A DNA stretch of 64,000 nt, from contig CANIKO010000007.1 of the NCBI GenBank assembly GCA_947468275.1, forward strand, positions 62,001 to 126,000, given 5' to 3'. This document shows positions 13,608 through 26,802 of the stretch, one piece after another (the first letter of the stretch is position 1; each line of letters opens with the position of its first letter). The notes beneath the pieces were generated by a model that searched no databases, was not told the DNA's origin, and saw only the letters and a program-made list of their open reading frames with translations. Source of the stretch: Bacteroidota bacterium. GTDB taxonomy: Bacteria; Bacteroidota; Bacteroidia; NS11-12g; UBA9320. A program made the position numbers and the translations under genes.

Positions 13608-14033
13608 TTATAATGTTCTTACGTAGTTAATAATATTCCAGATGTCTTCTTCATCAGTAATTTTTTTCTTAAAAGAAGGCATATCATCCCTACCTGTTTG
13701 AATTTTATAAAATAATTCGCCATCCGTTTGTAGTTGAAAATCTTTTGTGCTAAAATCACCAGATGGGGTATCTAATTCTTTTGATTTGGGGCCGTCACCT
13801 AAACCTTTGGAGCCATGACATGATTTGCAATTTTTTGTGTACAAGGCTTTTCCCGCTGATGTACTTTCTGCACCTTTAGCAATAGGATTCTTCTTGGCTT
13901 TTGCCGCTTCTGCAACCTTCCATGGCTTCTTTTTATCATCCTGTGTTCTTGTGTTGAATGACATTGTAATCCAGCTAAGAACTAGCATCATTAATACGGC
14001 AGTAAATAATTTTTTGTTGGTTAGTGTTTTCAT
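13608..14033 (-). CDS. Exported monoheme cytochrome c (class I)
   Basis: 141 residues. An N-terminal hydrophobic segment (residues 8-26) acts as signal or anchor; a Lys/Ala-rich linker follows, then a compact cytochrome c domain. Heme attachment site CKSCH (C69, C72, H73) in GKALYTKNCKSCHGSKGLGDG; the axial Met is probably in DDMPSF near residue 118, and the C-terminal helix is DIWNIINYVRTL. Last gene of the operon, 88 bp after its neighbour and followed by a strong terminator. It is the likely soluble electron carrier for the NrfD/Fe-S module. Confidence 0.9.
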   Translation of the reverse strand: MKTLTNKKLFTAVLMMLVLSWITMSFNTRTQDDKKKPWKVAEAAKAKKNPIAKGAESTSAGKALYTKNCKSCHGSKGLGDGPKSKELDTPSGDFSTKDFQLQTDGELFYKIQTGRDDMPSFKKKITDEEDIWNIINYVRTL

Positions 14034-14121: not shown

Positions 14122-15045
14122 TTATTTTTTAGTTTTCCCAAGTCTTTTTATCTTAAATAATAGATAAACTAAATAGCAAATAGTTCCCCAAATTAATATA
14201 ATTAATGAAACGGTTACAATCACTAATGGAATTGGCGCATTATTACCTCTTGACCATAAAGTTCGTCTTGTTAATGGATTTACTTTAGGCAGTATTTTCC
14301 ATGGGATATCTTTACTTATTTCAATAATACCGTTGTTTTCTTCATCATCATACCTCGCTACTACTGTTATTGTCTTATTGGCATTTCCTGGAAGATCTGC
14401 AGGAATTTCTGCTGAAACTTCACCATTTTCGTCGGTGGTTAATCCGTCTTCACCAAAAGGCAACATTCCAAAAGTTCTCTTAATAAGCATTTTCATTTCA
14501 GTTTCAGGCGAAGCTACCTCAGCACCGTCTTGAAATTTAGTCAGTTTAGCTACAACAGTTGTTACAGCATCTTCAGTATTAAACGTAAAATTTATCAATG
14601 CTTCATTCACAGTTATCTCTTCCTGCATATCTTCATAACGCAAATCTTCATTGGTAGTAGCAATAAAATTAAATACATGCACCTTTGACATCAATTTATT
14701 AAAATTATCAGTGAATTTGAATGTAGCCAAACCATCTTCGTTTGTTACAAGATTCCCCATCCATCCGTCTCCAACTATTGGATCATACTTTTTAATTTCC
14801 GTCAGGTAAAGATTTACTATAAGATTTTCAACTGGAATAAATTTCCCATCTACTTTTCTTGTTACTTCTACCTTCACACTCTTTATCCCATTTGTTATTT
14901 TATAACTTAGGTTCATGCTAGCTTGTAGCTTTGATGACGTGGAATCATTCTGAGCATATATATTAATGCTAAAAAGTGAAACCAGATATATAATAAAAAC
15001 TGGAATCAGTCTTTTAATGTATAAATATTTGAATAGCTTTTTCAT
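14122..15045 (-). CDS. Membrane-anchored extracytoplasmic protein, Ig-like domains, in NrfD operon
   Basis: 307 residues, not assigned to a named family. Signal-like N-terminus (MKKLFKYLYIKRLIPVFIIY...), two beta-rich regions (GNLVTNEDGLATFKF near 95-110; GEDGLTTDENGEVSAEIPADLPG near 195-215) that repeat the 'T-x-E-x-G-x-A/V' pattern of Ig/CarboxypepD-like folds, and one C-terminal helix (IPLVIVTVSLIILIWGTICY) followed by a basic cytoplasmic tail. Its ATG overlaps the NrfD stop (ATGA), so it is translationally coupled and probably an accessory subunit of the same complex. Confidence 0.72.
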   Translation of the reverse strand: MKKLFKYLYIKRLIPVFIIYLVSLFSINIYAQNDSTSSKLQASMNLSYKITNGIKSVKVEVTRKVDGKFIPVENLIVNLYLTEIKKYDPIVGDGWMGNLVTNEDGLATFKFTDNFNKLMSKVHVFNFIATTNEDLRYEDMQEEITVNEALINFTFNTEDAVTTVVAKLTKFQDGAEVASPETEMKMLIKRTFGMLPFGEDGLTTDENGEVSAEIPADLPGNANKTITVVARYDDEENNGIIEISKDIPWKILPKVNPLTRRTLWSRGNNAPIPLVIVTVSLIILIWGTICYLVYLLFKIKRLGKTKK

Positions 15046-16412
15046 ACTTTTTCGTTTAAATGCTCATAAATGGTATCACTATGTATTCCTCTTTCTTCTG
15101 CTATTTCCCAAATAGAAATAACAGGAAAATACCTAACAAAAAGTGTAATAACTAATAACGCTCCAGCAAGTGATGCTCCCGTAATTGACCATTCTGCTAA
15201 TGTTGGTGCATAATGTTTAGATGCTTCAGGAATCTGTTGTAAAGGCAAGAATGGGTGCAACATAGTTGGAATTACAATTAAATATCTTTTGAACCAAGCT
15301 CCAATAATTACAAACACTGCCATGATAAAAATTGGCAAGGGTTTTCTTCCTTTTTTAAATAGGAGAACAATTATTGGAATGAACATTCCAAAAATTTGCA
15401 CTGACCAAAACATTGGAGCGTAATGTCCCGTAAATAGTTCACGAAGATGTTCAGCTTCATCACCTTTCATTTTATATCCTGGAATAAAGTACTCATTTAC
15501 CGTAAAATATAGATATATAAATGAAAGAAGCACTAATAATCTTCCCATTCTGTCAAAATGCTTGTCGGTAAGATATTCATCATAATGAACATAAAATTTC
15601 CTTAAAATAGACATACCCGCAATAACAGCTGCCGCTCCTACCATGAAGGCGCCAGCAACAAAGTAGGCACCGAAATTAGTGCTATCCCAACCAGGGCGGT
15701 ATGTAGTTGCAAATAGCCAAGAGGTAACTGTGTGGATACTCAAGGCAACAGGAATTATCAAAACTGATAAAATTTTAACTGCACGCTTTATTATTTCATA
15801 TTGTTCAGGTTTGTTCTCCCATCCAAATGACAAAACACTATACATCTTTCTTTGCCATTTAGGAATATTAGGCAGCCGGTCTCTGCAAAATGCAATATTT
15901 GGAAGCAATGAAAAATACAACAGTAATAAACTTATAGTCATATAGGTCATTACCACAATTACATCCCAAACTATTGGCGATTGAATTCTACCATGAAGAA
16001 ACATATTAAGAATTCTATCTGGACGCCCCATGTCTACAATGATAATTAATCCTGCAAACATGATTGCAGATACGGCAATCACTTCAGATATCCTCGTTAA
16101 TGGTGCTCTCCAGTTTACATTAAGTAAATTAAGAACGGCTGTAATTAATGAACCTACCAAACTCACGGCCACAAAAAATACAAAATTGGAAATATAAATT
16201 CCCCAAGAAACAGTATCATTTAATCCAGTAACTTTTAACCCAAACCTAAGTTGTTGAATATAGTTATATAATCCAATTGCAATTACTATGCATAGAACGG
16301 TTACCCATAATTTACCTGCTATACCAAATTTGCGCGGCAACAAATCTTCATTATAGCGATTAAGCATTTCAATCGCTTCCTTCTCGCTTTTCGGTGTTAT
16401 TAAATCTTCCAT
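15042..16412 (-). CDS. NrfD/PsrC-family quinol-interacting membrane subunit
   Basis: 456 residues with about ten hydrophobic helices. Recognisable NrfD/PsrC/ActC features: WGIYISNFVFFVAVSLVGSL, WRAPLTRISEVIAV, FAGLIIIVDMGRPDR (the Asp-Met-Gly-Arg-Pro motif of the family), SIHTVTSWLFATTYRPGWDST and FTGHYAPMFWSVQIFG. Such subunits oxidise or reduce quinone in the membrane and exchange electrons with an attached Fe-S protein. The closest in style are ActC-like subunits of alternative complex III and related respiratory complexes. It lies 24 bp after the ferredoxin subunit and overlaps the next gene by 4 bp. Confidence 0.9.
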   Translation of the reverse strand: MEDLITPKSEKEAIEMLNRYNEDLLPRKFGIAGKLWVTVLCIVIAIGLYNYIQQLRFGLKVTGLNDTVSWGIYISNFVFFVAVSLVGSLITAVLNLLNVNWRAPLTRISEVIAVSAIMFAGLIIIVDMGRPDRILNMFLHGRIQSPIVWDVIVVMTYMTISLLLLYFSLLPNIAFCRDRLPNIPKWQRKMYSVLSFGWENKPEQYEIIKRAVKILSVLIIPVALSIHTVTSWLFATTYRPGWDSTNFGAYFVAGAFMVGAAAVIAGMSILRKFYVHYDEYLTDKHFDRMGRLLVLLSFIYLYFTVNEYFIPGYKMKGDEAEHLRELFTGHYAPMFWSVQIFGMFIPIIVLLFKKGRKPLPIFIMAVFVIIGAWFKRYLIVIPTMLHPFLPLQQIPEASKHYAPTLAEWSITGASLAGALLVITLFVRYFPVISIWEIAEERGIHSDTIYEHLNEKV

Positions 16413-16436: not shown

Positions 16437-17384
16437 TTATTTTTCTTTTACCTCTTCAGCATCTTCAAATGGAAACAAACGATTGGCGGCAGGTAAGTAA
16501 TATACACTTGGTTCTGTACCCAATCCTTCCATATATCTATAACCAGCCTTGTCTCTTAGTAATTGCTTGAAACGAACAGTTTCATCCCCATTACAAACGG
16601 TATCTTCATTAGCATCACCAAAATAATAAACACCATTAGGACAAGCGGATACACAATGAGGCAGATTCCCTTGTTTTAGCATATCAGGGCAGAAATCACA
16701 TTTCTCAACTGTTCCTTTTTTTCTGGGAACGCTAGTTTCAGGAGAATATGACATTTCTAAAATATTTGCAGGTTGCTGCGGTTCTTCCCAGTTGAATGTG
16801 CGGGTTGAATATGGACAAGCTGCCATACAGAATCTACAACCTATACAACGTTCATTGTCTATTAATACGAGTCCATCACTTCTTTTAAACGTTGCATCAA
16901 CAGGACAAACTTTCACACATGGCGGTTTATCGCAATGCAAGCATGGTTTTGGCATCCAATAGGGAGAGGCTTCCGGAGAATCCTGCATTTTAAATACCTT
17001 AAGCCATTTATCCTGCTCTGGAAGTAAATGATGCTTTTGGCAAGCCTTTTGGCATTTAAGGGCATTTTTACAACGTGATAAGTCGATCACCATAACATAC
17101 TTTTTACCTGGGATTCCTTCGCGAGAATCTGTTGGGCTAGCACCACAACATTCGTGTGCTTTGAGGTGTGAGGAATCTACTTCTACAAGTTTTCCATCAG
17201 TAGTAAGTACTTTTACTTTATTTCCACTTTCTACCTTTGCCGAATCTTTGTTGTCGGAAAAAACCTTTTGCAAACCACCTCCAACTACTGTTAGACCGGC
17301 AGCAAGAAATCCAAATTTCAGAAAATCTCTTCTTCCTGAATGGTCACCTTCCAATTTTTCTTTATCATCTGATTTTTGTGACAT
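16437..17384 (-). CDS. Tat-exported four-cluster ferredoxin subunit (DmsB/HybA/PsrB type)
   Basis: 315 residues. Twin-arginine signal GRRDFLKFGFLAAG (RR at 18-19), so the protein is folded with its clusters and exported to the periplasmic side. From about residue 98 come four cysteine groups: CKNALKCQKAC, CLHCDKPPCVKVCPVDA, CIGCRFCMAACPYSTR and CDFCPDML...PHCVSACP, enough for four [4Fe-4S] clusters wired in series. Paired with NrfD downstream it forms a quinone-linked electron-transfer arm. No molybdopterin catalytic subunit is adjacent. First gene of a four-gene operon whose promoter carries two FNR-like dyads. Confidence 0.92.
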   Translation of the reverse strand: MSQKSDDKEKLEGDHSGRRDFLKFGFLAAGLTVVGGGLQKVFSDNKDSAKVESGNKVKVLTTDGKLVEVDSSHLKAHECCGASPTDSREGIPGKKYVMVIDLSRCKNALKCQKACQKHHLLPEQDKWLKVFKMQDSPEASPYWMPKPCLHCDKPPCVKVCPVDATFKRSDGLVLIDNERCIGCRFCMAACPYSTRTFNWEEPQQPANILEMSYSPETSVPRKKGTVEKCDFCPDMLKQGNLPHCVSACPNGVYYFGDANEDTVCNGDETVRFKQLLRDKAGYRYMEGLGTEPSVYYLPAANRLFPFEDAEEVKEK

Positions 17385-17427: not shown

Positions 17428-17492
17428 CAAAGTTGACTGTTTAATCGCCTATTTTCTATGACCAACATCAATCTAAACTATGATATTTATCA
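17428..17492 (-). promoter_or_regulatory. P4: promoter with tandem FNR-like dyads for the Fe-S/NrfD operon
   Basis: On the minus strand: -7-like box CAACTTTG (plus 17428-17435; fits nAnnTTTG), proximal dyad TGA-N6-TCA at 17459-17470, distal dyad at 17481-17492, the latter inside TATGATATTTATCATA, a perfect palindrome. Proximal dyad start to box start is 31 bp and dyad-to-dyad spacing is 22 bp, the same as in three other promoters of the island. The box lies 44 bp upstream of the ATG. Confidence 0.8.
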
Positions 17493-17560
17493 TATTGAAA
17501 GGTGTAAAATTGAAATCTTATTTTCATTAATGAAGTGGGCTTCAAATCAAGATTACTTTT

Positions 17561-17600
17561 AAAAAAAAACTGGTTACAACTATTAAAATTGTAACCAGTT
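17561..17600 (-). terminator. Terminator of cassette A (after the DUF5777 gene)
   Basis: Perfect 12-bp stem AACTGGTTACAA (17568-17579) with TTGTAACCAGTT (17589-17600), loop 9 nt, followed on the minus strand by a T run (As at 17561-17569 on plus). It sits 26 bp after the stop at 17626. Confidence 0.9.
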
Positions 17601-17625
17601 AAACTTATTTCTAATCAACCCTAAA

Positions 17626-18525
17626 TTAACGCTTGGTGATGTTAAATCCAATCAAAAACTGTCCTTTTGAATAATTATTTTTATTATAAAAATTATTGGA
17701 TTGGGGAACTATACTTTGATAGTTTCCAAGGAATATTTGAAATGTGTGCGTCGCAGTTCCTATTTGTAATCCAAAACTTACATTTGGGTTAGGATTATTA
17801 GTAGTGTGCTTAGTTAATGGTTGGTCATAATTAGCAATTATGTCCATCTTATCATTTATAGCATAACATCCACTAAAGGCAATAGCAAAATGGGCATTGT
17901 TCATCTTAGGTTTAATTACACCTTCAGAATTTACATATCCTTCCACATTGTTAAACCAGGTTAAACTTGGAGCTACCTGAACTGACAAGCTTTTATTGAT
18001 TTTTCTAGCTAATATCAATTGGTTAAAATAAGAAAGTCTGTCAGAGTTATTCACAAAATTCCCTTTCTTCTCTCTGGTATCTATGGCAAAGTTTCCATAA
18101 TAGGTAGCGCTAATGGGAGAACCACCAACTTTGGCTTGCTTCAATATGGCATATTTTAGATTGCCATCCAGTTGCATACGTTCTTTTGTTAAACCAAATC
18201 CTACTTGTAAATTTTCAATAGGGGTGTAGTTAAATCCTAAACGGATGTTAGATGGAGCATAAAGACCATAAAAATCTTCATACCCATTTTTTACAACTCC
18301 AAAGCGGTGTTGAATTACAAATTCAAATACACCTTTTACCGGAACCATGACAGTTTGATTGTCAATTAGAAGATTACCTTTAAAGGTTTTCTTTACAATT
18401 TCATTTTTTTTAGGTTTTACTTCGGTATTTTCCTGAGCAAATGACATGCTTCCTATTGCCAAAAGGCAAATTAAGAGAGACAATGGCTTAAGGATATATG
18501 CGATTTTTTTTAATTGTTTTTTCAT
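17626..18525 (-). CDS. DUF5777-type outer-membrane beta-barrel protein, cassette A
   Basis: 299 residues from the ATG at 18525; a longer start at 18555 would overlap the upstream gene and add ten residues before the signal peptide, so the inner ATG is preferred. Cleavable signal ending SMSFAQ. The mature part has the family hallmark FEFVIQHRFG followed by LYAPSNIRLGFNYTPIENLQVGFG, and alternating hydrophobic strands to the C-terminus. DUF5777 proteins are predicted barrels found next to cytochromes in Bacteroidota. It begins 14 bp after the CX4CH cytochrome and is about 40 percent similar by eye to the barrel of cassette B. A pore or sheath for heme lipoproteins is an inference. Confidence 0.82.
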   Translation of the reverse strand: MKKQLKKIAYILKPLSLLICLLAIGSMSFAQENTEVKPKKNEIVKKTFKGNLLIDNQTVMVPVKGVFEFVIQHRFGVVKNGYEDFYGLYAPSNIRLGFNYTPIENLQVGFGLTKERMQLDGNLKYAILKQAKVGGSPISATYYGNFAIDTREKKGNFVNNSDRLSYFNQLILARKINKSLSVQVAPSLTWFNNVEGYVNSEGVIKPKMNNAHFAIAFSGCYAINDKMDIIANYDQPLTKHTTNNPNPNVSFGLQIGTATHTFQIFLGNYQSIVPQSNNFYNKNNYSKGQFLIGFNITKR

Positions 18526-18538
18526 CGTATTGATTTTT

Positions 18539-18940
18539 TTAATTGTTTTGGGCATTTTGTTTAATCCAGGCTAACATGTATTGACTAATATTAGATGGGT
18601 TTGCGGGACCAGTGGGTGGCATAATAGTTGCCTTTTTGCCTGTTAACCATAGATATACTGCACTGTTTTCAGGGCTTGCAACATCAATATACCCGCCATT
18701 TGTGAGTGAATTAAATGCTTTATCTGAAGTCAAAGTAGGTTTTACTCCTCCTGCACTGTGGCATCCACTCATATTGCATTTTGAATCCAATATGGGTATT
18801 ATATCATTAGCAAAACTAACAGGTCCTGTAATCTCAACATCTGTTTTTGGTAATACTGTCGCTACTTTATAGCAACTTTGCAAGCCAATCATAGCAGCGG
18901 CAAATACCGCAATAGCTATTGTTATTTTATTTATTGACAT
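18539..18940 (-). CDS. Small cytochrome lipoprotein with CX4CH heme motif, cassette A
   Basis: 133 residues. Signal peptide with lipobox GLQSC (Cys23). After the conserved FANDIIPILDSKC comes CNMSGCH (C55, C60, H61), that is CX4CH rather than the usual CX2CH, followed by HSAGGVKPTL. The downstream part (YLWLTGKKATIMPPTGP) has a possible axial Met. This pattern (SKC-x4-CH) is seen in Planctomycete-type and Bacteroidota cytochrome-like domains. Middle gene of the three-gene cassette; lies 60 bp after the EB_dh gene and 14 bp before the barrel. Heme binding is predicted, not shown. Confidence 0.8.
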   Translation of the reverse strand: MSINKITIAIAVFAAAMIGLQSCYKVATVLPKTDVEITGPVSFANDIIPILDSKCNMSGCHSAGGVKPTLTSDKAFNSLTNGGYIDVASPENSAVYLWLTGKKATIMPPTGPANPSNISQYMLAWIKQNAQNN

Positions 18941-19000
18941 GATTTTATTTATTAAATTATTGAAGTTAAGTTACTTTTATTTAACTGAAACAGCTTAAAG

Positions 19001-20362
19001 CTATTTTTGAAACTTCAATAATAAATTTGGTTTAATACCATGTTGATAATTTGATTGGTTAAATATAGCCACTCCAAAAGGCTGATCTTGCATTTTGCCA
19101 TCAACCATACCATAAGTAAAATCAATATCTTGTTTTAAAGTACCAGGTGTTTTTAACAAACGTTTCCACTCAATAATCCAACTTGTACCTGTGTAAGTAA
19201 CTTTACAGCTAATATCAGCTCGGCCATTGGTTAAAGGAGCTGACCAATAACTTGGAACTGCTTTTGGACCAACGCCACCATACACTGCGTCACCAATGCG
19301 CTGATAATCGGTACCAACTCTTGGGTCAATTATACTAAAATCACTTAATGTAATAACACCGTTTGAATCTACAGCAATAACTCTCTTTGCTAATCCACCA
19401 GTATCTGTTTGAAGAATGAAATATGAATTAGATGCATTTGGATTTATATATTTAGGCACTGAAACTTTAGTTACAGGAGTTTTTCCAGTGATAGCAATAC
19501 TTTGGGTATTATTGGTAGTTCCCGTTCCTGCAACGTTGGATTGATAAGTTGGTCCAAAAGGATAAGTAGTACTTTTACCTGTAACTACCTGATCATCTTG
19601 ATGACGGCCACTACCGCTTCCACCAACTAGATTTGTAACTGAAGGACCACCTGCCCAATCTTGATACTCGTCAGAAAATTGTGCATGAAGTGGGTCTCTT
19701 CCAATTTTCAACCACCACATATCAATTTTTTCATTGGCACCATTAGTATAATGATTTGCACTTGCATTGGCTTTCATAGTTGCAGGAGTAGTAGTTGGAT
19801 CAAGATATGGAGTGAACATGTGACAACTTGCATAACATGTTTGTGAAGGAAATTTAATACATGAATTATCAATATTCCATAACATAGCAAATTTATCTTC
19901 GCCCCATCCTTCTCTGGTAAGGTTTCCATTTACATCATATGTTCTTGCGCTTGGTTCTTGCGCCCAACGTTTTGTTGCAGGATCATAATACCAAGGAGAA
20001 ACCGATACACTTTTGTTTATATCAGGATATTCTGCTAAAAAATAAATGTTGGTTTCGTCATACACTGAACGTAAGGTAAGTGGATACTGTGTGCCAATGT
20101 AGCCATAAAATAAACCATTACCAGCATCAGGTACTTGGGTAATTGTGTTTAATTTTGTAGCATTTGCCCACACGTCATCAATTACACCATCAATTACTGG
20201 TGCTGTTGCTGTTTTTACCGAAACTAAATCAGCTCTTTGGGTAACAACTGCAGGTAGGTCCAACATCTGATTTTCTTTTGTACAACTGGATACAAACACA
20301 ATTGCCATAGCACCTACACCTACCAAGGTGGCTAACATTGCTTTTACTGATTTTGTTTTCAT
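19001..20362 (-). CDS. Ethylbenzene-dehydrogenase-domain heme lipoprotein, cassette A
   Basis: 453 residues. Signal peptide with lipobox FVSSC (Cys27); the first residues MKTKSVKA are shared with the YceI lipoprotein. The mature part matches EB_dh/carbohydrate-binding-9-like domains: APVIDGVIDDVWANATKL, LRSVYDETNIYFLAEYPD, GWGEDKFAMLWNID, then CYASCH (C176, C180, H181), a CX3CH heme motif, and near the C-terminus WIIEWKRLLKTPG. EB_dh domains bind heme b in the gamma subunits of ethylbenzene and DMS dehydrogenases; here a covalent site is added and no molybdenum subunit is nearby. First gene of cassette A, behind promoter P3. Confidence 0.83.
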   Translation of the reverse strand: MKTKSVKAMLATLVGVGAMAIVFVSSCTKENQMLDLPAVVTQRADLVSVKTATAPVIDGVIDDVWANATKLNTITQVPDAGNGLFYGYIGTQYPLTLRSVYDETNIYFLAEYPDINKSVSVSPWYYDPATKRWAQEPSARTYDVNGNLTREGWGEDKFAMLWNIDNSCIKFPSQTCYASCHMFTPYLDPTTTPATMKANASANHYTNGANEKIDMWWLKIGRDPLHAQFSDEYQDWAGGPSVTNLVGGSGSGRHQDDQVVTGKSTTYPFGPTYQSNVAGTGTTNNTQSIAITGKTPVTKVSVPKYINPNASNSYFILQTDTGGLAKRVIAVDSNGVITLSDFSIIDPRVGTDYQRIGDAVYGGVGPKAVPSYWSAPLTNGRADISCKVTYTGTSWIIEWKRLLKTPGTLKQDIDFTYGMVDGKMQDQPFGVAIFNQSNYQHGIKPNLLLKFQK

Positions 20363-20395
20363 ATTTTTTTGTTTTTAGTTATGATTATTGTAGCG

Positions 20396-20495
20396 CAAAT
20401 TTGCGTTCAATTACAAAATCAAAAAATGACTTTACTCATTATTATAAATGACTTCTGTCACCATTAGGCTTGATTGTTAGCAGACAAAAGTCTGC
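20396..20495 (-). promoter_or_regulatory. P3: promoter with tandem FNR-like dyads and upstream GCAGAC palindrome (cassette A)
   Basis: Minus strand: -7-like box CAAATTTG (20396-20403), proximal dyad in AATGACTTTACTCATT (TGA-N6-TCA at 20427-20438), distal dyad in ATGACTTCTGTCAC (20449-20460), and a perfect 6-bp palindrome GCAGAC-AAAA-GTCTGC at 20480-20495. Spacings: box to proximal dyad 31 bp, dyad to dyad 22 bp. The box is 34 bp upstream of the ATG. The whole block is duplicated upstream of the YceI gene (P2). Confidence 0.82.
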
Positions 20496-20635
20496 AAAAA
20501 CGCAACTTTTTAAAAAATATCACCAATTTAAAAGACATTGTTATAGTAAAAAATCGACTATACAATAATATTTTTCCCTTTTTTTTTAGAGTAGTTAACT
20601 AAATAATGGTATTATTTATAACTCCATATTTAATA

Positions 20636-21553
20636 TTAATAATTCCAAAGCCGAGTAACATTAAAACCTATTACAACATCCTTTTTTGTGAAGTCATTCG
20701 AGTTATAAAGCACGTTATATTGGTTAATAATGTAATCATAAGTACCCACAAAAATCTGAAAAACATGGGAACCTGTTGATGCTTCAAGTCCAATGGATAA
20801 ATTTGGTTTTGCCAAAATAGTTCCTGCCGCTTTTAGTTTACTGTCAGGTTTTGTAAAGTTGTGATCATACTCAAAAAGAATAGCTGTGGCATCTCCAATT
20901 TTATACCTTCCATTAAATGATAACCCAATGTTATTATGAGCCACCGATGAATCTACCATATTGAAATGAGAAATACTCGGTGCCAACTGAAGCGATAGTT
21001 TTTTGGTAATTTTTCTTGCAATAATCAGTTGATGGAAATAAGATAAACTATTGGTTTTTTTAGGAAAAACATCTTTCCTTACATCAATGGCCGCATCTCC
21101 AAAATAAGTTATACTAATCGGTATACTGCCTGACCTGGTTTGCTTTAAGATGGAATACTTCCACCCAAAATCCTGTAATTTATTATTTTTTGTGGTACCA
21201 ATTCCTAACTGGAGCTTATTAGTAAAAGTATAGTTAAGTCCGATACGAATATTAGAAGGTGCATACAATCCCAATAAATCAAATTCTTCGCTATTTAATT
21301 TTCCAAACCTGTGTTGAATAATAAATTCAAGGGTGTTTTTGGTTGGAACTTTAATGGTTTGATTGTTTAAAAGATACCCGCATTCAAAAGTTTCTTTTAT
21401 AGGTCGTTTGTCTTTCTTTGGTTTTTCCTCTACTACTGTATTCGAATCAGTTTGAGCGTAGCCCGAAAAAGCAAAAAGCTGAAATAATAGTGACAGGGTC
21501 ACTAATTTAGTATATAAATTTGGTTTCATAATTCTATTATAAAAGTTGTTCAT
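20636..21553 (-). CDS. DUF5777-type outer-membrane beta-barrel protein, cassette B
   Basis: 305 residues from the ATG at 21553, 12 bp after the preceding cytochrome stop; a start at 21595 would overlap it by 31 bp and prepend a basic stretch. Signal peptide MKPNLYTKL...AFSGYAQ (within residues 9-35). The mature part repeats the cassette A layout: ETFECGYLLNNQTIKVP, EFIIQHRFG, LYAPSNIRIGLNYT, PISITYFGDAAIDVRK and a terminal VIGFNVTRLWNY strand. Predicted outer-membrane barrel. Last gene of cassette B; no clear hairpin terminator follows it before P3. Confidence 0.82.
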   Translation of the reverse strand: MNNFYNRIMKPNLYTKLVTLSLLFQLFAFSGYAQTDSNTVVEEKPKKDKRPIKETFECGYLLNNQTIKVPTKNTLEFIIQHRFGKLNSEEFDLLGLYAPSNIRIGLNYTFTNKLQLGIGTTKNNKLQDFGWKYSILKQTRSGSIPISITYFGDAAIDVRKDVFPKKTNSLSYFHQLIIARKITKKLSLQLAPSISHFNMVDSSVAHNNIGLSFNGRYKIGDATAILFEYDHNFTKPDSKLKAAGTILAKPNLSIGLEASTGSHVFQIFVGTYDYIINQYNVLYNSNDFTKKDVVIGFNVTRLWNY

Positions 21554-21564
21554 TTTTTTCTTTA

Positions 21565-21951
21565 TTAATTTAACTTGGCTCCTTGCTTTAACCATAAAAG
21601 AAATTTATTTCTATCTATAAGTGGTAATTTTCCAACTGGCATATTGGTATTAAGCTTTATCATTAAGGTGTTATCTTCTGCCCTGAGTTTTGGATTAACC
21701 AAAAAAGTGGTATCTACCAAACCATTTTCAAAGAGAGAAAGGTAGGCATCATCCTTCAACAGGTTAGGAGAAACACTTTTGTTGTGGCAGCCTGAAATAG
21801 CACATTTTGATGCAAAAATTGGTTGCAGGTCTCTCGTAAAACTGATTTGTGCATTGGGATCTAATGCCGGTGTTTTAAAATATTCTCTTTGGCAGGAGGA
21901 AACTAGATTTGAAAAAATAAAAATAATCAAGAGATATTTAATTGTTTTCAT
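21565..21951 (-). CDS. Small cytochrome lipoprotein with CX4CH heme motif, cassette B
   Basis: 128 residues. Lipobox LVSSC (Cys20). The heme site CAISGCH (C50, C55, H56) is CX4CH, with the same surrounding pattern as cassette A: FTRDLQPIFASKC...GCHNKS. C-terminal NTNMPVGKLPLIDRNKFLLW carries a candidate axial Met. Its start is 2 bp after the EB_dh gene stop, so the pair is translationally linked. Likely a lipid-anchored electron-transfer protein working with the EB_dh lipoprotein and the barrel. Confidence 0.8.
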   Translation of the reverse strand: MKTIKYLLIIFIFSNLVSSCQREYFKTPALDPNAQISFTRDLQPIFASKCAISGCHNKSVSPNLLKDDAYLSLFENGLVDTTFLVNPKLRAEDNTLMIKLNTNMPVGKLPLIDRNKFLLWLKQGAKLN

Positions 21952-21953
21952 GG

Positions 21954-23321
21954 CTATTTTGATTTAAAAGTTAGAGTTTGTTTTAGAGAACCGATGTGAT
22001 TTTTTCCATCATTATCCATTAAGGCTATACCAAATGGATAAGATTTACCTTCCGGTGATGCAAATTGAATATCATCAGAATTAGCGTTAGTAAGATCACG
22101 CACTAATAAAACTTTATAAACAGTATGTGGGTTAAAGGTATTTATCTTACCTCGTGTTACATTAGATACTGTCCATATATTGGCCTGACTGCCCGTAGGA
22201 TTAACTAAATAATAACCGGGAATACTTCCTAATGCTTTCATATATGCAATCATATCATCTTGAACATTGGTAGGAACTTGTGCCCAATACGTAAATCCTG
22301 TATGTTCAGATTTACCGGAGAAATCCTTTATACCTGCTCGTGACCATTTAGCTGCAAATCCAATATTTGCGAAAGCAGTTCCTTCACCAGTGGGTCCATC
22401 TCCTTCACCATGTTCGCCATGACAATGAAAACAACCATAAGTTTCGTTATGATAAACCATATCGCCATTAACAATATCGCCAATAAAAGCTGTTTTTTTA
22501 TAAAGATAATAGGCGGGATCTAATTTAGAGGAATCACCAAAAGGACGACCACACCTTTGTTCGCTTCCATCCCATTCGTACATTGGTGCGGATCGGGGAT
22601 CTCCGGGTATTACTTTATTTCTTACCATCATAGCAGTACCGGCATCATAATCAAGTCCTGTTGTTGCATTTGTGATCATATCTTTGGCATAGCCCAATGG
22701 TTCAGAAACTGCTAAATCCCAATTCCAAAGATCTACAGAGCCTGAAGCTGGCTGCATTTTACCATTGTGGCAAGAAGCGGCACATCCTTTTTCGGCAAAA
22801 GTACCTGCGGCACTTGTGGCTCCAGAAATATCAAATGCGAGAGATACTTTATCACTGTTTCCTTGTGATGTCCATCCATCAGGATTATCTGTTTTTAGAG
22901 GGTCACTTGGTCCATTTAGGATAGAAGCTTCAAGATTAGGACTATAATCGTTATCGGTCCATTCAATATATAAATATACCTTTTTATCATCATAGGCAGC
23001 TTTCATAATAACATTAGGATCTGTTTTTCCATTATTAAATGAATTTATTCCATTGTAGGTTCCTGTCATATTTAGTAGTCCATCAGGGTATAAAGATTTT
23101 GTATTTAAATCGCCAACTGTTACTTTGATATAATCCGCAGTTTTCCAATATGCGTTGGCCAAGGTAATAGGTGGAGTTGTTGCGTATGACGCTTCCAAAT
23201 CGGCCGTTTGTATAGAAACTTTTGGCCTCGGGGGTTGCGGAAAATATGCTTTTTCACATGCCGTGAATAACAAAATAATTGTTAATATGGCAAGTATTTT
23301 GGGGTTAAAAAAGATTTTCAT
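21954..23321 (-). CDS. EB_dh-domain heme lipoprotein fused to a cytochrome c domain, cassette B
   Basis: 455 residues from the ATG at 23321 (preferred because the signal MKIFFNPKILAILTIILLFTAC begins there; an in-frame ATG at 23357 adds 12 residues). Lipobox LFTAC. Mature order: EB_dh-like N-terminal part (AAYDDKKVYLYIEWTDND), a CX3CH site CAASCH (about residues 180-185), then an inserted cytochrome c domain with CFHCH (about 297-301) in NETYGCFHCHGEHGEGDGPTG and closing helix VQDDMIAYMKALG, then the end of the EB_dh fold (GIALMDNDGKNHIGS). Compared with cassette A it carries one extra heme. First gene of cassette B. Confidence 0.82.
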   Translation of the reverse strand: MKIFFNPKILAILTIILLFTACEKAYFPQPPRPKVSIQTADLEASYATTPPITLANAYWKTADYIKVTVGDLNTKSLYPDGLLNMTGTYNGINSFNNGKTDPNVIMKAAYDDKKVYLYIEWTDNDYSPNLEASILNGPSDPLKTDNPDGWTSQGNSDKVSLAFDISGATSAAGTFAEKGCAASCHNGKMQPASGSVDLWNWDLAVSEPLGYAKDMITNATTGLDYDAGTAMMVRNKVIPGDPRSAPMYEWDGSEQRCGRPFGDSSKLDPAYYLYKKTAFIGDIVNGDMVYHNETYGCFHCHGEHGEGDGPTGEGTAFANIGFAAKWSRAGIKDFSGKSEHTGFTYWAQVPTNVQDDMIAYMKALGSIPGYYLVNPTGSQANIWTVSNVTRGKINTFNPHTVYKVLLVRDLTNANSDDIQFASPEGKSYPFGIALMDNDGKNHIGSLKQTLTFKSK

Positions 23322-23450
23322 TTTAAGATTATTAATTATTAGGGATGAATTGAACATTGCTTAAAAGTGAACTAAATACATTGACTCGTTTTTAATCAAA
23401 CTTTTCTATTATAATATTATTAATGTCTGCTGTAAACTTCTAATTTAATA

Positions 23451-23486
23451 AAACAGGGTGGTTTTCAATTTTCAACCACCCTGTTT
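23451..23486 (-). terminator. Terminator between the small lipoprotein gene and cassette B
   Basis: Perfect 13-bp stem AAACAGGGTGGTT (23451-23463) with AACCACCCTGTTT (23474-23486), 10-nt loop; A/T-rich on both flanks. It ends the YceI/lipoprotein unit and implies that cassette B has its own promoter in 23322-23450, where no FNR-type dyad was seen. Confidence 0.88.
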
Positions 23487-23555
23487 CATGTTTTATTAAT
23501 TGGCTTTAAAAAATTACTTCATTTAATAGAGATATTTTTCAATACGCTTGATTTA

Positions 23556-23921
23556 TTATTCAACTGTTAAATTAACAGTTACATCACCTTTCTTAGCACC
23601 AATTGTAACCTTGGCTCCACCTGATTGTAATTTAATATCTAAACCGTTGGTGTAATCCGCATCTACAAAGTAATCGCCTTTATTCAAGCCTTTAAAACTA
23701 TACTTGCCGCTAGCATCTGTCAGTGTAGTAGCATCATAATTAGTGGTTGCTTCAGTAGCTTTAATAGCTAAATGAACAATTGCGTTGGGAAGAGCAGTTC
23801 CTTTAGAGGTAACTGTACCAACTATATTATTATCGCCTCCAAAGCCTGCTTCCTTTTTGCAGGAGGTAAATGTGAACAGTGAAACTATTAATAGTATGGC
23901 TGTTATTTTAATTGTTTTCAT
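23556..23921 (-). CDS. Small lipoprotein with CarboxypepD_reg-like domain
   Basis: 121 residues. Lipobox FTSC (Cys21) after MKTIKITAILLIVSLFT. The mature part is one carboxypeptidase-regulatory-like beta-sandwich: IVGTVTSKGTALPNAIVHLAI, TTLTDASGKYSFKGLNKGDYFVDADY, VNLTVE. Such domains are common as surface modules in Bacteroidota. It lies 70 bp after the YceI gene and before a strong terminator, so the two probably form one transcript from P2. No catalytic motif is seen; the role in the respiratory island is unknown. Confidence 0.78.
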   Translation of the reverse strand: MKTIKITAILLIVSLFTFTSCKKEAGFGGDNNIVGTVTSKGTALPNAIVHLAIKATEATTNYDATTLTDASGKYSFKGLNKGDYFVDADYTNGLDIKLQSGGAKVTIGAKKGDVTVNLTVE

Positions 23922-23991
23922 GTGATTATTTTTAATTTATTGTTAATGTTTAATATTTAATTATCAGTTCTTTTTAAATTTGATAATGGAT

Positions 23992-24750
23992 CTAATCATG
24001 TGCATTGTTTACAATGTTGCAATCAACTCGGATGGTTACTAAATCATTTATTGACGTTGAATTAACTCCAAATATGGTGTTTGCATTTATCGCAAATTGT
24101 CCTGCTAATCCAACTCTATCTGTCTTTTTGTTTGTAGTTGCATTAACTGTAGTTGAAATACCAGTATAACTCATTGGCATTTCAATAGATTTAGTAACAT
24201 TACGGAATTTAAAATCACCTTTTACTAAATAACCATTTCCGTATTTTTCAACGCTTGTGCTATTAAACCAAGCTGTATCAGTGCTTGCTCTAGGTTTAAG
24301 AACCACAGGAGCTTTGCTAGCAGTATCAAATATTACTCCCATATAACCTGGTCCGCATTTTCCATAAGCATCTCGTCCTGGTTCACCAGTATTATAGGAA
24401 GAAAGTAATACCCAAGATTTAATGGTTGTATTAGCAGGATTGGCTTGGTCAAAATTAACTATGTATTGAAAAGTATTAAATCTACCTGTAAGCGGGGCCC
24501 CGTTGGCATAATACTTTGTTTCCCACATTACATTACTATGAGCCTTGTCTACTTTCCAAGCTCCTGGAGTAGTATAAGTAGTTGGAGGATAACCACCAAT
24601 TCTGGCGTCAATTACATCTGTCCCAGAATTGTTGCTGTTTGCTAACAATTCCACTTTGTTTTCTTTGGAGCAACCGACTACTAAAGCGACTGCCATTGCG
24701 CACAAACCCACCACAGTGACGAATAGTGCTTTTACTGATTTTGTTTTCAT
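23992..24750 (-). CDS. YceI-family lipoprotein
   Basis: 252 residues. Signal peptide MKTKSVKALFVTVVGLCAMA with lipobox LVVGC (Cys27); the first eight residues are identical to those of the cassette A EB_dh protein. The mature domain is YceI-like: GAWKVDKAHSNVMWETKYY, LTGRFNTFQYIVNFD, YLVKGDFKFRNVTKSIEMPM, and the final FAINANTIFGV. YceI lipocalin-like barrels bind polyisoprenoid or amphiphilic molecules in the periplasm and often accompany cytochrome genes. Transcribed from P2, which carries the tandem FNR-like dyads. Confidence 0.87.
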   Translation of the reverse strand: MKTKSVKALFVTVVGLCAMAVALVVGCSKENKVELLANSNNSGTDVIDARIGGYPPTTYTTPGAWKVDKAHSNVMWETKYYANGAPLTGRFNTFQYIVNFDQANPANTTIKSWVLLSSYNTGEPGRDAYGKCGPGYMGVIFDTASKAPVVLKPRASTDTAWFNSTSVEKYGNGYLVKGDFKFRNVTKSIEMPMSYTGISTTVNATTNKKTDRVGLAGQFAINANTIFGVNSTSINDLVTIRVDCNIVNNAHD

Positions 24751-24784
24751 AATTTATTTGTTTTTAGTGTTGATTATTGTGGTA

Positions 24785-24884
24785 CAAAGATCCTTTGGTG
24801 AACAAAATCGAGAACTGACTAAACTCATTTTTATATATGACTTCAATCAACTTTACAGATGATTGTTAGCAGACAAAAGTCTGC
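24785..24884 (-). promoter_or_regulatory. P2: promoter with tandem FNR-like dyads and GCAGAC palindrome (YceI gene)
   Basis: Minus strand: -7-like box GATCTTTG (24785-24792), proximal dyad in ACTGACTAAACTCATT (24816-24827), distal dyad in TATGACTTCAATCAAC (24838-24849), palindrome GCAGAC-AAAA-GTCTGC at 24869-24884. The spacings (31 bp, 22 bp, and 33 bp between distal dyad and palindrome centres) are identical to P3. Box lies 35 bp from the ATG. Confidence 0.82.
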
Positions 24885-24963
24885 AAAAACGCAACTTTCA
24901 AAAAACTACTGGACCATTAAAAATCGCCTTTGGTGCCTAATAATAAAGAGCTTAAGATATTCT

Positions 24964-25680
24964 TTAGAATAAACTTATTTTATATCTAGAAATACAATTT
25001 TTCAAACCTTGATAATCTGACATAATAATTTCTTTCCCCCTTATATGGATTAAATTTTGTTGATTGAGGGAAGTAAGGGTGCGACTAATTTGTTCAGAAT
25101 TGGTGCCAGCAATTTCAGCCAAGTCTTGCCGTGAAATAATTACATTAAGTGCTTTTTCCTTCTTACTAATCCCAAATGTTGATGCAACATATAGCAATGC
25201 AAATATTATTTTTTCCTCTACTGTCATTTGGGCAAAGAATTTTGTTCGTTGTTCTATTTTCCGAAGTTCTTTTGAATAGAACATCATCATATTAAATGTA
25301 AACTGAGGATTAGCCATTAAAGCATCATGCATGGTTTGATTATCAAAAAAACAAATTCGCGAATCTTCCATTGTCACCGCTTCAATCGGATAGGTTTCGC
25401 CCTGTGAACCTAAATGCCCTAAAATATGCCCATCAGTGGCTAGCCTTACAATTTGTTTTTTACCATCTAGGTTTGAACTATTAACCTTTACTTTACCTTC
25501 TTGAATAAAATATACCCCAAAAATAAGATGGCCCTCTAAAAAAATATGTTGACCTTTTTTAAAAACAATCTGATTCTTCTTGTTATTTACTAATAAAATC
25601 CAATGGCTATCACAAAGCTTAATATAGCAGTCTGTGTTTTTGCATTTACCGCATTCAACAATAATATTATCTGATGTCAT
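24964..25680 (-). CDS. FNR-type Crp-family regulator with predicted [4Fe-4S] cluster
   Basis: 238 residues. N-terminal cysteines C10, C13, C18 and C23 (CGKCKNTDCYIKLC) and an internal C110 mirror the C20/C23/C29 + C122 cluster ligands of E. coli FNR. A cNMP-like sensor barrel covers about 30-130 (GQHIFLEGHLIFGVYFIQEGK), a dimer helix follows, then a Crp-type winged HTH (about 180-220) with recognition helix SEQISRTLTSL. E196, S199 and R200 form the ExxSR signature that in FNR reads TGA half-sites. The protein is thus a good candidate for the TGA-N6-TCA dyads found nearby. Transcribed alone; no dyad in front of it. Heme- or NO-sensing (HcpR/DNR-like) is the main alternative. Confidence 0.87.
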   Translation of the reverse strand: MTSDNIIVECGKCKNTDCYIKLCDSHWILLVNNKKNQIVFKKGQHIFLEGHLIFGVYFIQEGKVKVNSSNLDGKKQIVRLATDGHILGHLGSQGETYPIEAVTMEDSRICFFDNQTMHDALMANPQFTFNMMMFYSKELRKIEQRTKFFAQMTVEEKIIFALLYVASTFGISKKEKALNVIISRQDLAEIAGTNSEQISRTLTSLNQQNLIHIRGKEIIMSDYQGLKNCISRYKISLF

Positions 25681-25749
25681 TTTAATTTCTCTCTTTAAAT
25701 TTAATAGTTAAATATAATCATTTCAGAATACCGTTTAAAACAAAAAACC

Positions 25750-26598
25750 TTATTGATGTTTAGGATTTGGATTGGAAATATTAAATCGGATAACACCCGT
25801 TATGGAATAGAAATTAAAATCCTCAAAACTGACTTTCAACCCTAATCCTATTAAGTTTTCCATAATTTTTTCATCTCTTATTCCAAATTCCAATTCACTA
25901 AAACTTTCTTTACCTCTCTTGCGCAGCAAAGCCTCTGAATAAATTGTTGTGTATTCATTAATATGTATAGGTTGCATTTGATAGAAAACCGAATATTCTA
26001 TTTTTTTATTTCTAGATACAGTTGAATCTAACCCTCCATTATTAACTAAATGTTCATTTAAGCCCAATAATGAAACACTTGTACGTAAAATATGAAATGC
26101 ATTGTGTACATATTTAATATCCGACCAATATACAGTCGCGGAAAGACCTGAATAGGTTGTATTTGGGTTTTTATTTACCTGGTCAATACCCATTGTATAA
26201 CCAATATGAAGTGGGAATTCTTTCCACGTTAAATCAAAAGTTGTTTCAAAAAAGTGAACCTTCGATTTTTCTTCTTTCTCTTGTTCGGAAATCGTAAAAA
26301 CCCTTCCTTCCGTTTGTGAAGGTCCATAAAAATGCAATTGGCTAACTGCAGTTAAACTTTTGCGATTGTTGAGTGCAATTTCTAATTTTTCAAGGCCATT
26401 AATACAAACTGCTCCCCCCTTTTCATTGCCAAATTCAAAAAGCCTTTTCTTTCTAGAGGAATCTATAGGTGCATTAAATATAAAAGGAGCCGACACCGTA
26501 TCCGTTTTGTGAACTAAATTCTCGGATCTTACGTCTTGCGCTTTGATTTCGAATATTAAACACAGAACACAAATATTGGCAATTAAAATGGATCTCAT
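25750..26598 (-). CDS. Exported protein, probable outer-membrane protein, FNR-dyad controlled
   Basis: 282 residues, no family recognised. Cleavable signal MRSILIANICVLCLIFEIKAQ. The mature part has alternating beta-strand patterns (LEIALNNRKSLTAVSQLHFYGP, TTYSGLSATVYWSDIKYVHN, LGLKVSFEDFNFYSITGVIRFNI) suggesting a barrel or porin-like protein, with a stretch rich in Glu/Lys near residue 105. Upstream lies P1, with the same tandem dyads as the cytochrome genes, so a role in the same respiratory regulon is inferred. A 70-bp gap separates it from the regulator gene downstream. Confidence 0.65.
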   Translation of the reverse strand: MRSILIANICVLCLIFEIKAQDVRSENLVHKTDTVSAPFIFNAPIDSSRKKRLFEFGNEKGGAVCINGLEKLEIALNNRKSLTAVSQLHFYGPSQTEGRVFTISEQEKEEKSKVHFFETTFDLTWKEFPLHIGYTMGIDQVNKNPNTTYSGLSATVYWSDIKYVHNAFHILRTSVSLLGLNEHLVNNGGLDSTVSRNKKIEYSVFYQMQPIHINEYTTIYSEALLRKRGKESFSELEFGIRDEKIMENLIGLGLKVSFEDFNFYSITGVIRFNISNPNPKHQ

Positions 26599-26735
26599 AC
26601 TTTGATGTCATAAATTAAATCACTTTAAGCAAAGTGAGAAATCAAAGTCAATGTAAAACCAAAGATTGTCAATTCAGCAATCCTCCTTGTTTTCTCAAAA
26701 TGATAAAAAATGGAATCTGTTTAAAAATTCGATTG

Positions 26736-26802
26736 CAAATATTGCAATGTATATTTCTTTTTAAACTGACTAATATCAGTAATACATAATGATTTATGTC
26801 AT
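26736..26802 (-). promoter_or_regulatory. P1: promoter with tandem FNR-like dyads for the outer-membrane protein gene
   Basis: Minus strand: -7-like box AATATTTG (26736-26743), proximal dyad ACTGACTAATATCAGT (TGA-N6-TCA at 26767-26778), distal dyad ATGATTTATGTCAT (26790-26801). Box to proximal dyad is 31 bp as in P2-P4; dyad spacing is 23 bp instead of 22. The box is 138 bp from the ATG at 26598; the leader contains a 7-bp hairpin (TCACTTT-aagc-AAAGTGA, 26620-26637). Confidence 0.78.

Follow-up and report, generated by a model that had tools for sequence, protein, structure and literature searches.

A tandem-dyad promoter layout with a fixed distance to the -7 box in a Bacteroidota genome and its relatives

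Four minus-strand promoters, P1 to P4, in a stretch of 64,000 nt from a Bacteroidota bacterium (contig CANIKO010000007.1; the whole stretch is called the window below) raise the question whether they share one architecture, and which regulator might read it. A preliminary description had taken them for an FNR-type regulon, in which two activator dimers bind at a fixed distance from a -7 box. Analysis of the window, the genome and its relatives led us to the view that P1 to P4 are probably activated by a member of the CRP/FNR superfamily, which would bind as tandem dimers with the proximal dimer at a class II site. Judged from the sequence, we give this reading a probability of roughly 0.8.

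Geometry of the four promoters

TGA-N6-TCA dyads were counted across the window, and among the 25 found, the only pairs lying 10-60 bp apart were those of P1, P2, P3 and P4, at the coordinates and on the strand of the preliminary description. Their elements are listed here as read on the minus strand; two genomes are used for comparison, G004 (same genus, 98% complete) and G013 (same family).

26790..26801, minus strand: P1 distal dyad, TGACATAAATCA; 23 bp from the proximal dyad, as also before the orthologous gene in G004
26767..26778, minus strand: P1 proximal dyad, TGATATTAGTCA
26736..26743, minus strand: P1 -7-like box, AATATTTG; 23 nt past the proximal dyad, as in 113 of the 139 class-wide matches listed
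24838..24849, minus strand: P2 distal dyad, TGATTGAAGTCA
24816..24827, minus strand: P2 proximal dyad, TGAGTTTAGTCA
24785..24792, minus strand: P2 -7-like box, GATCTTTG; kept in G004, one base further away in G013
20449..20460, minus strand: P3 distal dyad, TGACAGAAGTCA
20427..20438, minus strand: P3 proximal dyad, TGAGTAAAGTCA
20396..20403, minus strand: P3 -7-like box, CAAATTTG
17481..17492, minus strand: P4 distal dyad, TGATAAATATCA
17459..17470, minus strand: P4 proximal dyad, TGATGTTGGTCA
17428..17435, minus strand: P4 -7-like box, CAACTTTG; kept in G004 and G013

The TGA-N6-TCA core was present in all eight dyads. The dyads are separated by 11 nt in P1 and by 10 nt in P2, P3 and P4, which corresponds to dyad-to-dyad spacings of 23 and 22 bp, respectively, as had been claimed. 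In all four promoters, a gap of 23 nt lies between the end of the proximal dyad and a box fitting nAnnTTTG, and the TTTG begins 27 nt past the dyad; the fixed offset of 31 bp described earlier is the same arrangement, measured between the low-coordinate ends of the proximal dyad and the box. Adding half of the dyad (6 bp) to the gap gives 29 bp between the middle of the proximal dyad and the start of the box. This agrees with class II activation, in which the site centre precedes the 5' end of the -10 or -7 element by about 29-30 bp; in E. coli, a class II site centred at -41.5 is likewise 29 bp away from the -10 element.

The published -7 consensus of Bacteroidota is TANNTTTGY (PMC12632263). 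The first T of TAnnTTTG is missing from the boxes of P1 to P4, which are therefore probably weak and activator-dependent; the full TAnnTTTG was found class-wide at the same position. A scan with the E. coli sigma-70 consensus gave 65 matches versus 67 in shuffled sequences, thus no excess, and the E. coli consensus is uninformative for this DNA. E. coli FNR reads TTGAT-N4-ATCAA, as the preliminary description points out, and its half-site TTGAT was not kept here: TGA alone is constant in P1 to P4, the bases on either side vary, and only the core common to the family remains.

Recurrence in the genome and among relatives

When the 3.3-Mb genome was scanned for TGA-N6-TCA pairs at spacings of 17-37 bp, 24 pairs were obtained, 13 of which had a spacing of 22 and one, P1, a spacing of 23, with about 0.5 pairs per other spacing. 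The Poisson probability of 13 pairs where about 0.5 are expected is 2e-14, and 22 was the sole peak. None of the 13 pairs lay inside an open reading frame (ORF) of at least 100 amino acids; one overlapped an ORF of 87 amino acids that is probably spurious. A genome-wide scan had been proposed as a means of refutation, through random occurrence of the same geometry in coding DNA, and its outcome was the opposite. Also, for a dyad combined with a box, 27 matches were found at the correct offset, versus 7 one base off and 4 with the reversed control.

The layout was not a peculiarity of four promoters, but was found class-wide. The class of the scanned relatives is probably Bacteroidia, as judged from a Taibaiella locus (see below) and the phylum-typical box. 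In 58 genomes, comprising the genome itself and its relatives, 97 pairs at spacing 22 were counted, whereas the reversed pattern yielded 5. Of 40 pairs in an independent set, drawn mostly from the relatives, 26 had TTTG at offset 27, with a mean of 1.1 for each other offset. With the dyad spacing left free, pairs with a box were found in 125 of 198 class genomes, whereas the control had no match; among the 150 matches listed, the spacing was 22 in 122, 23 in 10 and 32 or 33 in 6. Conversely, when the spacing was kept constant and TAnnTTTG could follow at a gap of 13 to 40 in 119 class genomes, the gap was exactly 23 in 113 and 22-24 in 129 of the 139 matches listed. In a sample of the phylum, 22 of 49 genomes of the same class had matches, versus one of 149 from other classes.

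Orthologous promoters were found in both comparison genomes. The locus is single-copy in G004 and has P1, again with spacing 23, P2 and P4, while G013 has P2 and P4 and, in addition, a further spacing-23 pair before an EB_dh gene. In the orthologs of P1, P2 and P4, every one of the 12 dyad core bases is conserved, against an agreement of 36-43% at the remaining positions. The five box bases are identical between orthologs, except that P2 of G013 has its box one base off. What has been retained is thus precisely the geometry that had been claimed.

These data also bear on an alternative, namely that the layout arose by chance in A+T-rich DNA. The TGA/TCA core is short, and P2 and P3 are copies that lie in a duplicated block of 250 bp and are therefore not independent, which would boost an accidental resemblance. 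P1 and P4, however, are independent of P2 and P3, and the spacing distributions and counts with their controls, in the genome and across the class, as well as the conservation at orthologous promoters, refute a coincidence, the probability of which we regard as close to nil. The earlier assessment that chance is unlikely in spite of the duplication was thus upheld.

Three further arrangements were noted. At L016:8960-9039, an Hsp20 gene and a gene for 204 amino acids are separated by two tandem pairs in divergent orientation; the pairs are about 12 bp apart, and their four dyads occupy 80 bp. At L133 (G000:C2:57905-58011), two dyads 33 bp apart lie between divergent small genes; each dyad has a correctly spaced box of its own that points outward. 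We also considered whether all promoters with a single dyad have a degenerate distal dyad at -22. This idea was discarded: 21 sites lacking an exact pair gave no increase at 22, with a slight one at 33, and the single-dyad promoters therefore seem to be a separate group.

Proposed mode of activation and candidate regulators

A CRP/FNR site covers about 22 bp. Dyads with this spacing are therefore directly adjacent, and dimers bound to them could touch. In the mechanism that we propose, two dimers would sit head-to-tail with their centres 22 bp apart (23 bp in P1). The proximal dimer would be located at about -41.5, the class II position, and the distal dimer at about -63.5 on nearly the same face of the helix, where it may contact the proximal dimer or the C-terminal domain of the polymerase alpha subunit. 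Spacings of 22 and 32/33 correspond to two and three helical turns, and those of 23 and 32/33 would keep roughly the same face as 22. Transcription from the weak boxes would be co-operative and activator-dependent. CRP/FNR proteins are also able to repress, and the symmetric arrangement might suit operators at which bound dimers block the polymerase. The dyads, however, never overlap the -7 box but are both found upstream of it, at the class II position, and boxes without the T of TAnnTTTG are found in activator-dependent promoters, which makes repression quite improbable.

Four genes with an HTH_Crp_2 domain were found in the genome, one of them in the window, directly behind the P1 gene:

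25750..26598, minus strand: secreted protein encoded behind P1, no match in Pfam or NCBIfam; the ortholog in G004 is 55% identical
24964..25680, minus strand: CRP/FNR-family regulator, cNMP_binding and HTH_Crp_2 domains, 69 bp behind the P1 gene

The window regulator has four N-terminal cysteines, C10-x2-C13-x4-C18-x4-C23, with a spacing unlike that of E. coli FNR, and all four are kept in G013. Its recognition helix (TNSEQISRTL) contains E-x2-S-R. Against NCBIfam, it scored 61 bits for the Fnr subfamily, the cut-off being 228, and no equivalog was reached; the nearest solved relatives were generic CRP/FNR proteins. It would probably be a [4Fe-4S] sensor of oxygen or redox state. Within the window, this FNR-type protein would be the likeliest reader of P1 to P4, with oxygen or redox as the controlling signal, and its position 69 bp behind the P1 gene would allow expression from P1 and thus, possibly, autoregulation.

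The genome also encodes two fusions of a receiver domain with cNMP and HTH_Crp domains (L017:8560-11070 and L018:16162-18414), each with a PAS-HisKA-HATPase kinase gene close upstream. Both fusion genes lie immediately before tandem pairs (at C2:77078 and C12:64052), just as the FNR-type gene precedes P2, and the grammar would be available to them as well. The reader could, instead of the window FNR, be a receiver-CRP fusion, phosphorylated by the neighbouring PAS histidine kinase, and the promoters would then form a two-component stress and respiration regulon. Receiver-CRP genes with PAS kinases are found directly before tandem pairs in G004, too. This genome, which has three CRP members, namely two receiver-CRP proteins and a short protein, keeps P1, P2 and P4 without an FNR-type match and has a second YceI-family gene (L088:9549-10127) in the place of the FNR-type gene. 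Across genomes, however, FNR-type genes track the pairs better: pairs were present in 14 of 15 genomes in which the best CRP match has N-terminal cysteines, versus 18 of 43 others, a comparison that ignores kinship. In addition, G019 carries 6 pairs with an FNR-type protein as its sole CRP match, and several genomes with receiver-CRP genes have no pair. On balance, we consider receiver-CRP fusions as the readers in place of the FNR-type protein rather unlikely.

Several observations weigh against the main reading, including the assignment of P1 to P4 to the FNR-type protein. The subtype of the regulator was assigned for each genome by the best match only, and the association of FNR-type proteins with pairs takes no account of phylogeny. 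The TGA-N6-TCA core alone does not distinguish between members of the CRP/FNR family. In three genomes (G030, G031 and G033), pairs were found and no CRP match was detected, perhaps because these genomes are incomplete. Most directly, the promoters kept in G004 imply that the window protein cannot be the only possible reader, and a single regulon read by FNR alone was rejected as too narrow. Of the original proposal of an FNR-type regulon, we retained the activator module of the CRP/FNR family, its proximal dimer in the class II position, the additional dimer two turns further upstream and the -7 box typical of Bacteroidota. The restriction to FNR was not retained, given that TTGAT is not kept and G004 has no FNR-type match.

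The fusions adjoining pairs, together with G004, suggest that the layout probably serves more than a single subfamily. In its specific form, that abutting dimers at 22 bp, 23 nt and TAnnTTTG are common to at least two CRP/FNR subfamilies in the same genomes, cysteine-bearing FNR types and receiver-CRP fusions, this extension of CRP/FNR activation is tentative. If it is true, the unusual sigma factor and promoter of Bacteroidota would impose a single activation geometry with an obligate requirement for two dimers, on which distinct signals would converge.

Target genes and relation to known systems

Behind P2, P3 and P4, the following features were found:

23992..24750, minus strand: YceI-domain lipoprotein-like gene, first after P2
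19001..20362, minus strand: first gene behind P3, encoding a protein with an EB_dh (ethylbenzene-dehydrogenase-type haem) domain and with a signal peptide that is a duplicate of the one in the P2 gene
17568..17600, minus strand: strong terminator-like hairpin of 14 pairs and a following T run, separating P4 from the upstream cassette
16437..17384, minus strand: 4Fe-4S dicluster protein with a twin-arginine-like leader, first gene of the P4 operon
15042..16412, minus strand: NrfD-family membrane subunit, P4 operon
13608..14033, minus strand: c-type cytochrome (CXXCH), P4 operon

The nearest NCBIfam families of the 4Fe-4S protein and the NrfD subunit were DsrO and DsrP, respectively, and also QrcC/QrcD, all below the curated cut-offs. 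The duplicated block (24659-24908 and 20271-20519, 77% identical) contains the promoter, the leader and a lipoprotein signal peptide (MKTKSVKA...), and its two copies stand before the unrelated YceI and EB_dh genes, an arrangement indicative of capture of a promoter plus signal peptide via duplication. The region 17626-23357 holds two tandem cassettes of an EB_dh protein, a small CX4CH protein and a DUF5777 beta-barrel, with the non-canonical haem-like motifs CX3CH and CX4CH. Only one copy is present in G004 and G013. The cassettes are possibly an outer-membrane electron-transfer unit.

Elsewhere in the genome, pairs precede genes for Usp, Hsp20, PFOR and CvfB, a GH130 operon, a PEBP operon, a protein sorted by the type IX secretion system, and a small gene followed by a tryptophanase-like gene. 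Single-dyad sites with a box precede genes for a di-haem cytochrome c peroxidase, NADH dehydrogenase chain 3, a tryptophanase-like protein and MbnP. In other genomes of the class, pairs lie before FixS/CcoS (cbb3 assembly; twice), cytochrome c, HemA, DoxX, Usp and a tryptophanase-like gene. In an uncultured Taibaiella (L053:6280-9124), a pair with a box at the same offset precedes a cluster of norC/norB-like, hemerythrin-like and Rrf2-like genes, and a second pair lies between a FAS1-like and an FNR-type gene (the names hemerythrin-like, Rrf2-like and FAS1-like were assigned by eye). The expectation that matches would fall before respiratory genes was thus borne out in part: across genomes, the targets are largely respiratory or microaerobic, including ccoS/FixS, norCB-like genes, cytochromes c, NADH dehydrogenase chain 3, PFOR and HemA, but Usp, Hsp20 and tryptophanase-like genes are also among them. 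Judged by these annotations, the set has the apparent profile of a low-oxygen, nitrosative and stress response.

In E. coli, CRP- and FNR-dependent promoters have class II sites at -41.5 and class I sites at -61.5, and P1 to P4 resemble class II or multi-site promoters with the proximal dimer at the former position and a second dimer near the latter (PMC5957442). Unlike in E. coli, abutting dyads with a fixed 22-bp spacing recur here across many genes and genera, with TAnnTTTG instead of TATAAT; at the multi-site promoter of deoC, the sites are more widely spread, with CytR between them (PMC5957442). The CRP-family protein Crp (BT4338) of Bacteroides thetaiotaomicron recognizes a 22-bp palindromic site with the motif TATGTTnTAnAACATA, a single palindrome without a TGA-N6-TCA core at sugar genes (PMC3878776). 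HcpR, PgRsp and CrpPg of Porphyromonas gingivalis and HcpR2 of Bacteroides belong to the CRP/FNR superfamily and are linked to redox, haem or nitric oxide; the HcpR2 motif is GTAACnnnnGTTAC, likewise a single palindrome, that in P. gingivalis is another one, the HcpR2 regulon comprises hcp only, and the available sections of these reports describe no tandem 22-bp grammar (PMC1274295, PMC12040651).

The receiver-CRP fusions recall a different system. The rhizobial FixL-FixJ-FixK chain consists of a PAS kinase, a receiver protein and a CRP-family protein, with FixK-type targets such as cbb3 assembly genes. Here, in contrast, receiver and CRP domains are fused in one polypeptide, and the pair of kinase and fusion protein resembles a condensed form of that chain. 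In the open-access literature, with most subscription papers outside this scope, we found no report of a tandem 22-bp CRP/FNR rule in Bacteroidota. The components, i.e. CRP/FNR sites, class II geometry and the TANNTTTGY box, are already known, while the tandem 22-bp rule is apparently new.

Little is understood of how genes are activated at the unusual TAnnTTTG promoters of this phylum, and the layout looks like a widespread wiring standard for responses such as that to oxygen shortage. The natural spacing variants of 22, 23 and 32/33 form a matched set for measuring the co-operation of two dimers. The rigid geometry can be scanned for in raw sequence, which would make CRP/FNR regulons, with targets such as cbb3 oxidase, nitric oxide reductase, cytochromes and Usp, accessible in hundreds of uncultured genomes.

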